Positions 5,308-28,122 of a stretch of 39,132 nucleotides of DNA are shown in pieces; position 1 is the first letter of the stretch; every line of letters begins with the position of its first letter. Made by a program: the position numbers and the translations under genes. The stretch comes from Candidatus Daviesbacteria bacterium (lineage in GTDB: Bacteria; Patescibacteriota; Microgenomatia; Daviesbacterales; UBA10151). The notes under the pieces are model-generated. The model was not told the DNA's origin, did not search any database, and saw only the letters and a program-made list of their open reading frames with translations. The stretch spans positions 1 through 39,132 of the forward strand of contig DAIDIY010000012.1 of the NCBI GenBank assembly GCA_027451625.1, written 5' to 3'.

Positions 5308-6723
5308 TTATATCTGGTGAGATACTTTTAAATTTAACATTTTATACTTTAATCTGGAAGTCATAAATTTAGTTTTTGATACTTTTATAATTTCGGTTGG
5401 TTCTACAAGTCTCCACACAAAAACTATAAACACTAGAATATTTAATGCGGATGATATTCTAACAACCGTATCCAATAAATTATTTTGAATAAAATATGAA
5501 AGAATAAATAAATTACTAGGATATTTCCAGCTTAAATACAAATTGAAAGAAAAAATTATTGCCAAAATCAATCCAAAAATAAAAACTCTTTTATAGATTC
5601 CTGAAACTATCAATCCACATACAACACCAGCAAAATAATATCTTTCTAGCATATTAGTTAAAAACAGTATGCTGCCAAACCCCACTATAAATAAAGATTT
5701 AAAATAATTTTTCATACTCGATTCTCTTACTACAAAAAAAGCCAAAATATTAATCAGTAGATAACCTATATAACCCCAAAACTTGGTTGGAAGAATAAAT
5801 AAAACAGTATTTTGATCAAGTACTCTCTGCCCTATTACCATTTCCCAAAAATTTAATGCACTTCCACCAATTCGCATCTCTGATTTCAAAAATACTTTTC
5901 TGATTAATTCATATTGAATAAAATGAAAAACATTCTGACTAGTCATTAATTGAACGGAGATAATAAAAATATACAAAGATACAATTATTCCTACAGATAA
6001 ATTCCAAATATTTGGTTTTTGACGCAAATATAAAAAGACAAAAAGAGGTATAAATATTAACGACGTTGGCTTCATTTCAATACTTATCATTAGAAGCAGA
6101 GGAGACAGAATAAAGTATTTTCGGAATACAGCTAGAAATGAGAACAATAATATTAGAAAACTAACTTGATCATATTGTCCCCATAAACTAGATATATACC
6201 AACTAAATGGAAATAAAAGATATACACTAGCCATCACAAAAGCTGACTTGGGACTAAGTCTAGATATTAATTTATATACAACAGAGGCAACTAGAATATC
6301 AGTCACTATCGGTATCATTTTATAAGTCAATAAAAGTCCAGTGTTATATGAAGTATTTTTATAGCCTACTCTTCCAAACCAATAAACAAAGTTAAATAAC
6401 CAAAGGAGCTTAGAAGGAATAATTCTATGATAAGCAATAAATGAAGTAATGCTTACAAAAAACGTATTCAGCTCGCGGTAAAGAAAAGAATTAAATCCGT
6501 AAACTATATTGATCATTGGTAGTTGAGTAGGAGTAGAGTATAACCAAGGGAGTGAATTTCGATAAAATCCAATAAGCCCATTATGGTATATCCACTCTCC
6601 CCAGCCTGAATTACTTAGAATATCTACATGAAAGGCTTGTCCTGCAAGATAGAATCTCATTATCAATGAGATTAAAATAACTATTCTAAATAATTTTAGG
6701 TATTTTAATCTTTTAAGTTCCAT
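5308..6723 (-). CDS. multi-TM mannosyltransferase-like (GT87/GT-C) protein
   Basis: Multiple TM; SSLWGQYDQVSFLILLFSFLAVFRKYFILSPLLLMISIEMKPTSLIFIPLF. Confidence 0.65.
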   Translation of the reverse strand: MELKRLKYLKLFRIVILISLIMRFYLAGQAFHVDILSNSGWGEWIYHNGLIGFYRNSLPWLYSTPTQLPMINIVYGFNSFLYRELNTFFVSITSFIAYHRIIPSKLLWLFNFVYWFGRVGYKNTSYNTGLLLTYKMIPIVTDILVASVVYKLISRLSPKSAFVMASVYLLFPFSWYISSLWGQYDQVSFLILLFSFLAVFRKYFILSPLLLMISIEMKPTSLIFIPLFVFLYLRQKPNIWNLSVGIIVSLYIFIISVQLMTSQNVFHFIQYELIRKVFLKSEMRIGGSALNFWEMVIGQRVLDQNTVLFILPTKFWGYIGYLLINILAFFVVRESSMKNYFKSLFIVGFGSILFLTNMLERYYFAGVVCGLIVSGIYKRVFIFGLILAIIFSFNLYLSWKYPSNLFILSYFIQNNLLDTVVRISSALNILVFIVFVWRLVEPTEIIKVSKTKFMTSRLKYKMLNLKVSHQI

Positions 6724-9700
6724 TTAAATCACTTTGAATATTTCTACTTGAGGGTTATCAAAAATTTTTACTGTCCCCAATTTACCATCATCTTCCTGAA
6801 ACGGAATGCTTTTTAGAATATAAATATACTTAATATCATTATTTCTTAAAATATCTTTGGCATTACTTTCTTCATTAAGAACCGCCTCGCTTAAATTCAA
6901 TCTAGAATTATAATCAATTCCTAAAATATTCAAATTTATCAAATCTTCTAAAAATACTGGATGACCGGAATAAGCAGCAACATATCCAGTCGAAGTATAG
7001 GCATAAAGTGGAATTGGCTCTATAAGCCCTTGTTTAAATTTTTGATCAAATGGTTGAGTTAATACTATTCCTTGAGGTTGCATTTTCAAAAAGTTTAATG
7101 CTGAGATCTCATCCTTTGGTAGCTCAGCTGGAGGGCGAATTGGCAAGTAGTTACCTAACGTTCCATAAGTTGTAGGCAAGGTAAAAAGTAAAATAACAAT
7201 TAAAAATATCAGATTCGATATATTCTTCCATCTTTTCAATAAAGAACCTATTACAATCCCACCGAAGATACAACTTATTGTTTGTGAATAATAGAAAAAC
7301 TGTATAATATTCCAATCATTTCCCTTCTGAATAAAAAGGAGTGAGATTATAATACCTCCTCCAAAGATAGACCAAAGAAATATATTTATTAAATTATTTT
7401 CTTTCAAATCTTTATAGATATCTTTAATTTTAAATAATCCCAAAGCTCTAGTTCCCAGATTTCCAAATATAAAAAAGGCTAATCCCGCAATCTCGACTTC
7501 AAGCAGCTTATATAAACTTCCGGTTGCAAAATATGCTTGTCTAGCAAGTGATAGTCTCTGCCAGCCTAATCTATCCGGAAAATCTATCATTGAATTGACA
7601 AGCCAAAGAGGAGACCAAACGACTAACTGGTTGCTTCCTAAATTATTCGGCAAAAACACGAGTAAGGACAATCCTAAACAGAGTACAAATACCTTAATCA
7701 AGTCTGTTTCTTTTTGTTTTATCAACCGAAACAGCGACACTACACCCAAACCCCCTAAAAATAAAAGCCCTGCATAAACTTTAAATTCAATAAGAGTACC
7801 TCCAACGATGATAAAAGAAAATAAAAGAAAAAGGCCCGATCTCTTCCTTTCTAGTTCGTAAAAAATTAAAAATAATACAAAGAGCAAAATTAAAGATATC
7901 GCAAAGGGAGGATTGAGCAGCGTTGAGATTGCTTGCTGAGACCAGAAGGCTGATTCTCCTCCTATAGTCCTATCTTTTAGATAAGAAACTATCCATCCAA
8001 AACTTCCACCAAAATAAAACAGAAAAATAGTCGCTAAAGAAGCCGCTTTATTTTGCCAATACTTATTTACTACTTGATATAAAAGTAATCCCCCCAAGAG
8101 AGAAAAACAGATTGGGAAAAGACGAAAAAATAAATCTTGCTCATCAATTTGAAACAACTGAGATGATCGAGCTATTAATAAATCAAAAAAGTAGTGATAA
8201 TTATGCAAATATACTCCTGAAAAAAATGGATTTTGTGGAGGAATCTCTTTTTTGAGTGCTGATATAAGCCCTAAGTGCCAGATTGCATCATGCCCATTTG
8301 GTCCCCAAAACGATAACCCATATGAATAAACCAAACCGCTTCTAAAAATAGTTGCCAACCAAGTTACACTGCCGGAGAGTATTATAACGATGAGGAGAAC
8401 ATTTTGCTTTATATTAATATAAGTTGATTTTATATCAAAATAAATCTTTTTTACCTGTATAAGGCCCACTAAGGGTAATATCCAAATCATCCAAGATAGA
8501 TTTAAATATCCAAAAACAAAACTTAAAAGAGTAAATACTGACCAGCCAACAGGTATTGAGAGTAATTTTCTTCCTGTTAGGAACCATCCAGGCAAGAAAA
8601 AGAAAAAAAATGTTAATAGAATAAACTTAGCTGAATCCAAGAAGAAAGTCTTTATAAAAGAAAAATAATCAAATTGAGGATGAAAATTTGATTCCTTGTT
8701 CGGATTTAAATTCTTTTGAGACTGAACAGCATTTAAGATAGCAAAAGATATCGGCTGGATTTTATTATTTACAGAGATGTCGTTAGGTAATAGCTTAATT
8801 TGTCTTGTTAATCCTGCCTCAGTTTGGTAATTTATTGTCAATGTATCTTGATTAAGATTAGTCGATAAATGTGAAATCTTTCCATCGTCGAGCAGCCATC
8901 CATTTTGAAATGTAACATCATCCAATACTTCATTTTGCCATAGAGCCATGTCTAGATTTTGACACGATATCTGATAACATTTTTCTCTGTTGCTATCATT
9001 AAATAATCTTAAATCTCGGATTTTTGTTTGGTTATTCTGATAAAACAGACCAAATCTATAACGAGGTGTCATGTACCAAATAACTTTTCCATTACTACCT
9101 AACGGATCGCTTGCTGAAATTAGAATATTTGGTGAAATATTAGGATACACACTTTGGTATCTTTGGCTGAAACCAGCCATAGTTTGAGCATCAAATGTTC
9201 CTTTACTTATACCATCTTTTATGATTTGCAACTGATGACTGTACTCAGATCCAACCTTATCCCAAGAGAAATCATTTTCAATTCCAACGGTGACTTGATT
9301 TAAAGTGGTATTTTTACTATTTAAATAAATATTAAGTATCTTTTGGAAATATGTATAATTCAATCCTCTTAATAAATAATCATTCGCTTGAACACTGTAA
9401 GTACTTGCATAAGTACCACTTCCATAAGCATTAAAAGGATCACGAGTTGCCCATTGAAGAGTAATTAACCCAATCTTGGTTTGAATACTCTGCGCCGGCA
9501 TTAAAGCATTAAACTTCGAAGGATAAAAAGGTTCAGAGTAGTATTGGCCCCAGACTTGGTATCCATCTGTACTATATTGATCAGAAACATCTAAGTTAGC
9601 AGTTACACCGTACTTATCGTGAAGATAAGTTAAGGAGTAAGCGTCTATCCACCATGCCCCTACAGATTTAGGATAATATCCAAAGACAGATTTAAATTTA

Positions 9701-10128
9701 CTCATAGCTGCATCTATCAGTTTTATCCTGTCTGCAGGTGAGTATCCACTTAAAAAAACTGATCCGGGAAGATGCCAGCTTGAGCTTTTGTTATAATTTA
9801 CTCCTGCTGCTTTTGTTAAAGAAGGAGTCACCTCAAAAAATAGACCTATCTCTTGTTGAGCGTTTAAGTTCTTAAGAAATCCATCAATAGCATCATCAGT
9901 TAATGCATCATATCGAACAAGCCAGGTTGCAGGAAGATTATATTTATTAATCAACTCATATTGATTCTGCGGTGTCTGAAGTGGAGAAAAATTGTGACTC
10001 CAAAAATCTTTCCCCCTAATAGGGTTAATAATTGTTACTGATCCTTTCTCAAATGCTTTGCTAGAGCTAGGAATCAAAAAAAATAAACTAATAAAAGATA
10101 GAGCCAGGACTGCTTTAAACCAACGCAT
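6724..10128 (-). CDS. secreted polysaccharide-deacetylase-like domain fused to multi-TM GT-C module
   Basis: Signal peptide; N-terminal ATWLVRYDALTDD, QEIGLFFEVTPSL, YYPKSVGAWWIDAYSLTYL; C-terminal ~600 aa hydrophobic with NGHDAIWHLGLISAL loop. Confidence 0.65.
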   Translation of the reverse strand: MRWFKAVLALSFISLFFLIPSSSKAFEKGSVTIINPIRGKDFWSHNFSPLQTPQNQYELINKYNLPATWLVRYDALTDDAIDGFLKNLNAQQEIGLFFEVTPSLTKAAGVNYNKSSSWHLPGSVFLSGYSPADRIKLIDAAMSKFKSVFGYYPKSVGAWWIDAYSLTYLHDKYGVTANLDVSDQYSTDGYQVWGQYYSEPFYPSKFNALMPAQSIQTKIGLITLQWATRDPFNAYGSGTYASTYSVQANDYLLRGLNYTYFQKILNIYLNSKNTTLNQVTVGIENDFSWDKVGSEYSHQLQIIKDGISKGTFDAQTMAGFSQRYQSVYPNISPNILISASDPLGSNGKVIWYMTPRYRFGLFYQNNQTKIRDLRLFNDSNREKCYQISCQNLDMALWQNEVLDDVTFQNGWLLDDGKISHLSTNLNQDTLTINYQTEAGLTRQIKLLPNDISVNNKIQPISFAILNAVQSQKNLNPNKESNFHPQFDYFSFIKTFFLDSAKFILLTFFFFFLPGWFLTGRKLLSIPVGWSVFTLLSFVFGYLNLSWMIWILPLVGLIQVKKIYFDIKSTYINIKQNVLLIVIILSGSVTWLATIFRSGLVYSYGLSFWGPNGHDAIWHLGLISALKKEIPPQNPFFSGVYLHNYHYFFDLLIARSSQLFQIDEQDLFFRLFPICFSLLGGLLLYQVVNKYWQNKAASLATIFLFYFGGSFGWIVSYLKDRTIGGESAFWSQQAISTLLNPPFAISLILLFVLFLIFYELERKRSGLFLLFSFIIVGGTLIEFKVYAGLLFLGGLGVVSLFRLIKQKETDLIKVFVLCLGLSLLVFLPNNLGSNQLVVWSPLWLVNSMIDFPDRLGWQRLSLARQAYFATGSLYKLLEVEIAGLAFFIFGNLGTRALGLFKIKDIYKDLKENNLINIFLWSIFGGGIIISLLFIQKGNDWNIIQFFYYSQTISCIFGGIVIGSLLKRWKNISNLIFLIVILLFTLPTTYGTLGNYLPIRPPAELPKDEISALNFLKMQPQGIVLTQPFDQKFKQGLIEPIPLYAYTSTGYVAAYSGHPVFLEDLINLNILGIDYNSRLNLSEAVLNEESNAKDILRNNDIKYIYILKSIPFQEDDGKLGTVKIFDNPQVEIFKVI

Positions 10129-25368: not shown

Positions 25369-26052
25369 ATGATTTCCTTTAAAAACGTTTATAAAAAATT
25401 TAATCTCAATATAAATGCACTAGATGATGTGAGTTTGGATATTGAAAACGGTGAATTCGTATTTCTAGTTGGTCAATCAGGCGCAGGAAAATCTACAATG
25501 CTGCGACTTTTAGCACGAGAGTATGTTCCCACATCGGGAACAATTCTGATTGATGGTGTCGATATCTCTAAGTTAAAATCAAGCCAAGTTTCAGAATACC
25601 GCAGGAAGATCGGTTTTGTTTTTCAAGATTTTAAATTATTAGATGATAGGACTGTCTTCGAAAATGTAGCTTTAGCTCTTGAAGTGAGAGGAATTAAAGA
25701 AGTAGAGATAAATAAAGAGGTAGAGAAAACACTTAAAATGTTTGAAATTTGGGAGAGAAGAAAACTTTTTCCCCGCCAATTATCAGGAGGAGAAGCTCAA
25801 CGCACAGCAATTGCTCGGGCTACAATCGGAAAACCATCTCTTCTTTTAGCAGATGAGCCAACTGGAGATTTAGATCCACAAACCTCTTGGTCAGTTCTAC
25901 AATTACTTTTAGAAATCAACTCCTGGGGAACTACCGTTATTATGGCTACTCATAATAAAGAGATTGTTGATTCCCAAAAACGTCGAGTTATAGCCTTAAA
26001 GGCTGGAAAGATAGTAAAAGATAAGCATCAAAGTTTATATGAGATACATTAA
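25369..26052 (+). CDS. ftsE: cell division ATP-binding protein FtsE
   Basis: GQSGAGKST Walker A, LSGGEAQRTAIARA, LLADEPTGDLD; followed by ftsX. Confidence 0.95.
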   Translation: MISFKNVYKKFNLNINALDDVSLDIENGEFVFLVGQSGAGKSTMLRLLAREYVPTSGTILIDGVDISKLKSSQVSEYRRKIGFVFQDFKLLDDRTVFENVALALEVRGIKEVEINKEVEKTLKMFEIWERRKLFPRQLSGGEAQRTAIARATIGKPSLLLADEPTGDLDPQTSWSVLQLLLEINSWGTTVIMATHNKEIVDSQKRRVIALKAGKIVKDKHQSLYEIH

Positions 26053-26062
26053 TTAAAAAGTT

Positions 26063-26941
26063 ATGTCGATTTTTTTTAGTTTTGTCAAAAAGAATATTCG
26101 CCGTACACCATATCAGGCATTTGCGGCAACAATGGTAATGTTTTTTACATTCTTTTGTTTATCAACATTCCTGATTGTTGCTGTTGGTTCACAGCAGATA
26201 CTCAAATATTATGAGAGTAAGCCTCAAGCTATTGCCTTTTTTAAAGATGGTACTAACCCAGCGGATGTACAGCGAATCGAAGATGTTTTAAATCAAACAG
26301 GAAAAATTAAAAGCTTACATTATGTCAGTAAAAACGAAGCCCTTCAGATTTATCGTCAAAATAATAAAAACAACCCCCTTCTTCTTGAATTGGTTACTGC
26401 TAGTATATTACCCGCTTCTTTGGAAATCTCAACTGTATCTCCCGATGATTTACAACCTATAGCTAACCTGGTACAAAAAGAACCTACTGTTGAAGAAGTA
26501 GTATTCCCGGCTGATGTTGTATCTTCTTTAACCCAAGCAACGAGGATTATTAGAATTATTGGCGGAAGCGTGGTAGGATTCTTAGCTGTTTTCTCAACAC
26601 TAGTAATAGTTATGATTATAGGTTTTAAGATTCGTATTAAAAGAGCTGAAATTGAGACAATGAAGCTTTTGGGAGCACCAGTTTGGTTTATTCGCATACC
26701 TTATCTACTTGAAGGTATTATCTATTCTTTAACAGGAGCTATCTTAGGATGGGCTTTCAGTTTTGCTATATTATGGTATGTATCTCCGCTGCTCTTAAAC
26801 GGCCTTGGCGAGGTCTCGTCCCAAGTTTGGCCTCCCTCTATCTTATTTATAACAGGGCTTTTAGCCGCCCAAGTAATCGCAGCTTTGCTAGTAGGGGGAT
26901 TAGGCTCATTCACCGCTTTACGTCGTTATCTGAAGATTTAG
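26063..26941 (+). CDS. ftsX: cell division permease FtsX
   Basis: Four-TM FtsX architecture, IRIKRAEIETMKLLGAPVWFIRIPYLLEGIIYSLTGAILGW. Confidence 0.93.
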   Translation: MSIFFSFVKKNIRRTPYQAFAATMVMFFTFFCLSTFLIVAVGSQQILKYYESKPQAIAFFKDGTNPADVQRIEDVLNQTGKIKSLHYVSKNEALQIYRQNNKNNPLLLELVTASILPASLEISTVSPDDLQPIANLVQKEPTVEEVVFPADVVSSLTQATRIIRIIGGSVVGFLAVFSTLVIVMIIGFKIRIKRAEIETMKLLGAPVWFIRIPYLLEGIIYSLTGAILGWAFSFAILWYVSPLLLNGLGEVSSQVWPPSILFITGLLAAQVIAALLVGGLGSFTALRRYLKI

Positions 26942-26952
26942 CTTAAGAATTT

Positions 26953-28122
26953 ATGAAAAAATTCTTTGCTTTTTTTGTGTTGCTACTAATCGTTTTAGTA
27001 GTTTTTTTATCCCCTATTTCCACTTCTGCACAAGTTAATCCTCAAGATCTTCAAAATGTAGAACAGCAAATCAGTGATCTGACTTCTAAATTAAATACGG
27101 CAAAAGATCAAGAAAAAACGCTTCAATCTCAGCTTGACTATATCAATACCCAGTCTAAGCTTACGGAGCTAAAAATTACACAGACAAACACAGATCTGGA
27201 GCAGCTTCAAAGCGAGATATCAGATCTTTCTGGAAAGATAACTCAACTATCCAGCACAATAAGTACTTTAACCCAAATACTTTTAAATAGAATTATTGAG
27301 ACTTACAAATATGGTAACCCCTCCCCTCTTGAACTGATATTTTCATCGAAAGGTTTTTCTGATCTTCTGATGGCAACAAAGTATCTGGAAGTAGCCCAAG
27401 AGAACGATAAAAGAATTCTTTACCAACTTCAAGCTACAAAAAGCGCCTATCACGATCAGAAGATAAATAAAGAAACTCGGCAACAACAGGTTGAAAAACT
27501 AAAAGCTGATTTACAAAGTTACCAGAATCAACTTAACCAAAATGAAGCTGCTAAAGCAGCGTTATTAAGAATGACTCAAGATAACGAAGCAATCTATCAA
27601 CAGAAGTTAAAAGCGGCTCAGGAAGAGCAAAATGCAATTTTAGCAATCATTAATGGTCAAGGAAATGAAGTACAAGAAGGTCAAGTCCATAAAGGAGATA
27701 CAATAGGCACAATTATATCTGGCCCTAGTCCTTGTTCGACTGGAACCCATCTACATTTTGAGGTTCACCAGAATGGAAATATAATGAATCCTACCCGATT
27801 TTTAGCAAATCATTCCGTAACTTTTGCAAATTCTCCAGATGGACCATTCTCTTTTAGTGGAAGTTGGGACCTTTGGCCAGTATCTGATCCTATTATTATT
27901 ACTCAAGGCTTCGGTAATACTTGGTGGGCACAACATGGTTGGTATACAGATCCTCCGGGACACACTGGAGTAGACATGTACTCTTCAATCAGTCTTTCTG
28001 TGAGGGCTGTTCAGGATGGAACGTTATATGTAGGAGGTATAAGCTGTGGAAGCGGTATTTTACATTATAAAAGAGTTGACCAAGGTAATGGCATATCAAC
28101 TTACTATCTTCATGTGCTATAA
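26953..28122 (+). CDS. FtsEX-linked coiled-coil murein hydrolase (EnvC-like) with rearranged M23/LytM domain
   Basis: Signal peptide, long coiled coil, then STGTHLHFEV before HTGVDMY and terminal YYLHVL. Confidence 0.88.
   Translation: MKKFFAFFVLLLIVLVVFLSPISTSAQVNPQDLQNVEQQISDLTSKLNTAKDQEKTLQSQLDYINTQSKLTELKITQTNTDLEQLQSEISDLSGKITQLSSTISTLTQILLNRIIETYKYGNPSPLELIFSSKGFSDLLMATKYLEVAQENDKRILYQLQATKSAYHDQKINKETRQQQVEKLKADLQSYQNQLNQNEAAKAALLRMTQDNEAIYQQKLKAAQEEQNAILAIINGQGNEVQEGQVHKGDTIGTIISGPSPCSTGTHLHFEVHQNGNIMNPTRFLANHSVTFANSPDGPFSFSGSWDLWPVSDPIIITQGFGNTWWAQHGWYTDPPGHTGVDMYSSISLSVRAVQDGTLYVGGISCGSGILHYKRVDQGNGISTYYLHVL

Follow-up and report, generated by a model that had tools for sequence, protein, structure and literature searches.

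Is the M23/LytM domain encoded directly after ftsX in this candidate-phylum (Patescibacteria) genome circularly permuted, as the original prediction claimed, and what could such a head do under the control of FtsEX? M23/LytM is among the most widespread cell-wall hydrolase folds, and its canonical members carry their motifs in the order HxxxD, YxH, HxH. The window (the whole stretch of 39,132 nucleotides analysed) holds a gene in which these motifs run in another order.

The ftsEX locus and the layout of the encoded protein

All three genes of the locus lie on the plus strand. ftsE (25369..26052) encodes the FtsEX ABC ATPase (Pfam ABC_tran E 4.5e-37; gene order kept in relatives), and ftsX (26063..26941) its membrane partner with the FtsX extracellular domain (Pfam FtsX_ECD E 1.6e-14, FtsX E 8e-12). 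After a gap of 11 bases comes the gene of the putative FtsEX-linked hydrolase with the circularly permuted M23 domain (26953..28122, 389 aa), assigned from its sequence, Pfam and homologues; tsaE is the next gene directly after 28122. Synteny supported the predicted FtsEX linkage, both in the source genome and in most relatives: among 92 permuted entries, 81 stood directly after ftsX and 4 further ones were cut by a contig edge (loci L059 onward; some entries share a genome). A promoter and terminator scan gave a signal no better than chance. The source genome also encodes Mur ligases. Elsewhere in the window, two long ORFs on the minus strand (471 and 1134 aa, 5308-10128) had no Pfam match at E 1e-5 and sit in a cluster with PMT-type glycosyltransferases and a polysaccharide biosynthesis protein.

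Three parts make up the protein: first a signal peptide, then a coiled coil of the EnvC/PcsB type and, at the C-terminus, an M23 (LytM) domain (coordinates below are all on the plus strand). The predicted signal peptide covers approximately residues 1-26 (26953..27030; sequence MKKFFAFFVLLLIVLVVFLSPISTSAQ; helix 2-19 in the model). Residues 30-233 (27040..27651) form the coiled-coil hairpin and the helix that follows it, as indicated by AlphaFold2 helices 30-52, 57-119 and 135-233 and by Foldseek matches to EnvC and PcsB. Pfam CC_PcsB matched the coil at E 9e-5, with a whole-protein score under the CC_PcsB cut-off. The hairpin tip (residues 118-140, 27304..27372) is probably the region gripped by FtsX, judging from the model and the analogy with EnvC and PcsB (PMC7668044).

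Circular permutation of the M23 domain

Within the head of ∼150 residues the motifs run HLH, then HxxxD, then YxH. Half A (residues 239-285, 27667..27807), assigned by half-profile and by Pfam M23 positions 50-96, corresponds to the canonical C-terminal half and carries the HLH motif (H266 and H268, 27748..27756). A linker of residues 286-309 (27808..27879) joins the canonical C- and N-ends. Half B (residues 310-389, 27880..28119), also assigned by half-profile, corresponds to the canonical N-terminal half and carries HxxxD (H337 and D341, 27961..27975) and YxH (Y385 and H387, 28105..28113). The codon positions originally given for the three motifs were correct, as was the statement that the new termini fall between YxH and the VxxGxxIG strand. 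YxH does lie close to the stop codon, but the distance of four residues was slightly loose: the His387 codon (28111-28113) is followed by two residues and then the stop. The zinc ligands, which we take to be the HxxxD histidine and aspartate and the second histidine of HxH (here H337, D341 and H268), are all present and conserved, as are the two presumed catalytic histidines, that of YxH and the first of HxH (H387 and H266). In LytM, His260 and His291 activate the water (PMC4594094). We equate these two residues with the YxH histidine and the first HxH histidine.

The whole protein scored 41.4 bits against Pfam Peptidase_M23 (cut-off 28.7), yet the match was split into two pieces whose order was reversed, the best of them placing profile positions 50-96 on residues 233-280. 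phmmer against the PDB gave the same reversal, with query 335-388 on 3slu 244-295 and query 242-282 on 3slu 302-340. The halves were then rewritten in silico in canonical order and rescored against the PDB and, for four proteins, against Pfam M23. The rotated source head matched as one Pfam stretch (positions 2-96 of 96) and rose from 43.5 to 54.8 bits. Single stretches were likewise obtained for three relatives: L095 (2-96 of 96, 53.6 to 63.8 bits), L110 (2-96 of 96, 64.5 to 73.6 bits) and L117 (3-91, 55.7 to 63.4 bits). Thus rotation turned two broken matches into one in 4/4 proteins, with a gain of ∼8 to 11 bits. Against the PDB, the rotated head matched 23 sequences vs. 9 for the unrotated one, and the 3slu score increased from 27.1 to 37.4 bits. 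Order-dependent annotation shows only broken M23 fragments in such proteins.

Across the loci covered by the half-profile run, A preceded B wherever a coil-family protein possessed both halves. The exception was L121 from Bacilli, which matches the coil weakly and whose head is canonical. The remaining M23 proteins in this run were all canonical, including L001-L003 of the source genome. The source head does not show the canonical linear order HxxxD, YxH, HxH, and since its motifs are permuted we file it as a permuted variant and not as a canonical M23 member.

The same motif order beside ftsX was found widely in related genomes. Among 103 distinct permuted domains aligned, HLH was kept in 102/102 with letters there, Asp341 in 103, His337 in 98 and His387 in 101, so that the metal and catalytic residues are close to invariant. 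The chain ends 2-5 residues past the YxH histidine in nearly all 103, and the linker between the canonical ends measures 6-33 residues (median 18, leaving out one gapped sequence). L117-L119, L197 and L199, of a Dojkabacteria type, are divergent permuted members in which the HxxxD histidine is longer-spaced, shifted or lost (replaced by Arg in L118 and L119); these five may be inactive or altered.

An assembly error or frameshift could in principle bring about the permuted order. The source is a draft assembly of 51 contigs, and one relative, itself a Daviesbacteria draft genome (L033/L050/L082), has a copy of the permuted gene without most of half A, including HLH. However, the order recurs in 103 distinct homologous domains from independent genomes, some of them single-contig (e.g., G003/CP066688.1 and G011), which speaks against chance or misassembly, and tsaE directly follows the gene; a hidden canonical half was sought after 28122 and none was found. 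Such an artefact was ruled out on these grounds, and we give it a negligible probability. Half-profile order, in-silico rotation, conservation and structure prediction agree with the original claim, and we conclude that the permuted M23 domain is a real variant and not an assembly error.

Predicted fold and proposed function

The full protein was modelled by AlphaFold2 with an alignment of 52 sequences from the permuted family. Its long helices span 57-119 and 135-233, with strands from residue 240 onwards; pLDDT is >90 over most of the head and dips at ∼200-240. Modelled alone, the head reached pLDDT 92 and pTM 0.89, which means that halves A and B are confidently placed relative to each other. 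As the original prediction had expected, the two halves are thus confidently predicted to fold as one domain. Foldseek of the full model against the PDB gave the V. cholerae FtsEX-EnvC complex (8tzl), PcsB (4cgk) and EnvC-FtsX (6tpi) as best matches, and RipC in FtsEX-RipC (8idc) at lower rank. The isolated head matched no M23 structure in the PDB by Foldseek, an aligner that depends on sequence order.

The permuted order could also be satisfied in trans, with the halves of two chains completing each other in a domain-swapped dimer in which each active site is canonical. The confident single-chain model and the occurrence of linkers down to 6-7 residues argue against such a dimer, which we regard as quite improbable; linkers this short are what one would expect if a single domain holds the canonical ends near each other.

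Our preferred reading, which we consider likely, is that the protein is an FtsEX-gated, catalytically competent peptidoglycan hydrolase with a permuted M23 head. Catalysis, FtsX binding and gating are all putative, with FtsX binding suggested by synteny and coil similarity. The hydrolase would be secreted and would act on peptidoglycan under FtsEX control, its coiled-coil hairpin being held by FtsX in the manner of EnvC, PcsB and RipC. Its head would be an M23 zinc endopeptidase in which a short linker joins the canonical ends, new chain ends have opened in the loop just past the catalytic YxH histidine, and the halves fold into one M23 domain without loss of any metal or catalytic residue. 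Driven by ATP, FtsEX would move so as to bend the coil and raise the helix that precedes the head, which would free the active site to cut septal peptidoglycan.

According to PMC7668044, the LytM groove of EnvC stays blocked by a helix behind the coil, the restraining arm, until FtsEX moves that helix; PcsB, CwlO and RipC, whose heads are active, are presumed to be controlled likewise. The permuted hydrolase has a coil, a coil-to-head helix and an intact active site, and by analogy direct FtsEX-gated cleavage would be the simplest mechanism for it. The permutation alters the entry point of the arm into the head. In the model the coil helix ends at 233, and strand 240-245, the canonical successor of the YxH histidine, begins about seven residues further on; residue 389, where the chain ends, is next to the catalytic His387. 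This proximity makes a different activation, as originally proposed, anatomically plausible, and coil motion could possibly act directly on the catalytic cleft.

The head might instead be an EnvC-like activator of another hydrolase and no working enzyme. EnvC, the best-known FtsEX-linked LytM protein and a top structural match, is not itself active as a hydrolase but activates amidases, and the Arg substitution in L118 and L119 would fit an activator. Against this, almost all 103 domains have kept their metal and catalytic residues, and the source head, with all residues intact, does not have the degenerate LytM active site that is a trait of the EnvC type. The EnvC client family is Amidase_3. 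It had no match in the source genome (98% complete) and was present in only 9/57 genomes searched (the source and its relatives). We therefore consider an activator role unlikely and retain the FtsEX-gated hydrolase.

Distribution and possible exchange of heads

Matches to the hydrolase were found in 56/57 genomes searched (the source and its relatives), many of them extending to the C-terminus; the named ones are from Daviesbacteria, Levybacteria, Curtissbacteria, Gottesmanbacteria, Woykebacteria, WWE3 and Dojkabacteria. Of the 381 Patescibacteria genomes sampled, at least 98 match nearly the whole permuted profile. Two other phyla, those of the Anaerolineae record L131 and the Bacilli record L121, gave full-length permuted matches at E 1e-14 in 0/301 and 0/291 genomes, respectively, with half-domain matches only; the cut-off in both searches was strict, and the candidates scored in each genome were limited in number.

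Two coil-M23 genes stand in tandem behind ftsE-ftsX in one lineage (L180, L181 and L195), the first encoding a permuted protein and the second a canonical one, and in other Patescibacteria (L190, L191 and L193) the gene beside ftsX is canonical. Most permuted heads cluster together in the trees, and neither the heads (p 0.34) nor the coils (p 0.126) rejected a single clade of permuted proteins. The coil of the permuted protein in the tandem lineage groups with that of its neighbor (support 97), and the head data reject both head sets as one clade (p 0.02, in a test with few columns and a group picked after viewing the coil tree). Together these two results point to head swapping in this lineage. 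The permutation itself most likely arose by partial tandem duplication of an M23 domain and subsequent loss of the outer halves.

The same coil also bears a C39-like cysteine peptidase head (PF13529), without permuted M23, in several relatives (L039-L044 and L048). These proteins are often encoded directly after ftsX; the source genome has such a paralogue elsewhere (G000:C50:9311-10021, L036), and locus L065 has both head kinds, permuted M23 and C39-like, apparently in tandem. PMC7143001 interpreted a secreted Microgenomates C39 peptidase as bacteriocin-type; it may be a C39-headed division protein.

A further reading, which we offer tentatively and hold to be possible more than probable, combines two proposals. 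The permutation would be functional, with the coil entering beside the YxH histidine to shape or open the cleft in a geometry unavailable to canonical LytM, and the head would be a transferable module swapped between Patescibacteria division coils alongside the C39-like head. The permuted M23 domain is fixed beside ftsX in a large part of Patescibacteria, sometimes in tandem with a canonical one on a homologous coil, and thus provides a natural experiment on the coupling of FtsEX to the head. This experiment also bears on division in reduced-genome cells.

Comparison with known systems

The literature searched on permuted M23, LytM and lysostaphin, with most subscription papers beyond the reach of the search, contained no report of this kind, and the FtsEX-linked permuted M23 variant is apparently undescribed there. 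The "permuted endopeptidases" of PMC12667903 were considered as a prior permuted M23 and rejected, since the citation concerns NlpC/P60.

EnvC of proteobacteria shares the signal peptide, coiled-coil hairpin, ftsX partner and M23/LytM head with the permuted hydrolase (8tzl and 6tpi being top Foldseek matches). It differs in its canonical order and its role as an amidase activator, whereas the permuted protein has intact residues and no Amidase_3 was found in its genome. LytM/lysostaphin-type M23 enzymes have the same ligands and catalytic histidines and are homologous by profile, but run HxxxD, YxH, HxH vs. HxH, HxxxD, YxH here. PcsB, CwlO and RipC likewise combine a coil with a catalytic head beside or under FtsEX, and the coils of PcsB and RipC match the model. 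The heads of CwlO and RipC are NlpC/P60 and not M23. That of PcsB is CHAP (PMC7668044). Circularly permuted NlpC/P60 enzymes are already known (PMC6403190, PMC3142127); the LRAT-like, YaeF/YiiX group (PMC3142127) is also a naturally permuted cell-wall hydrolase fold, but of the unrelated papain-like type and without FtsEX link.

Phage occurrence was surveyed in viral models (BFVD) and a collection of phage records. tblastn of the whole hydrolase against phages gave no match. By Foldseek against BFVD, cyanophage virion proteins matched across the length of the head, and those of S-TIM5, S-TIM66 and S-TIM54 carry, in this order, HLH (HAH in S-TIM54), HxGxD and AHL, the motifs being intact in S-TIM5. 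Phage P60 and its kin have a degenerate permuted M23 (HLD) and end shortly past FVH or FLH. In P60 gp33 (L203:7778-10780) and S-TIM5 AEZ65701.1 (L205:7128-10121) the M23-like domain adjoins a phage tail-lysozyme domain. S-TIM5 AEZ65701.1 and its relatives thus share a permuted M23 domain with the hydrolase, and both structure and profile align it along its length. In AEZ65701.1, however, the domain belongs to a large virion protein that also has a tail-lysozyme domain and gave no coil-profile match, and the sequence similarity is very weak. The permuted topology is therefore not unique to the FtsEX-linked family.
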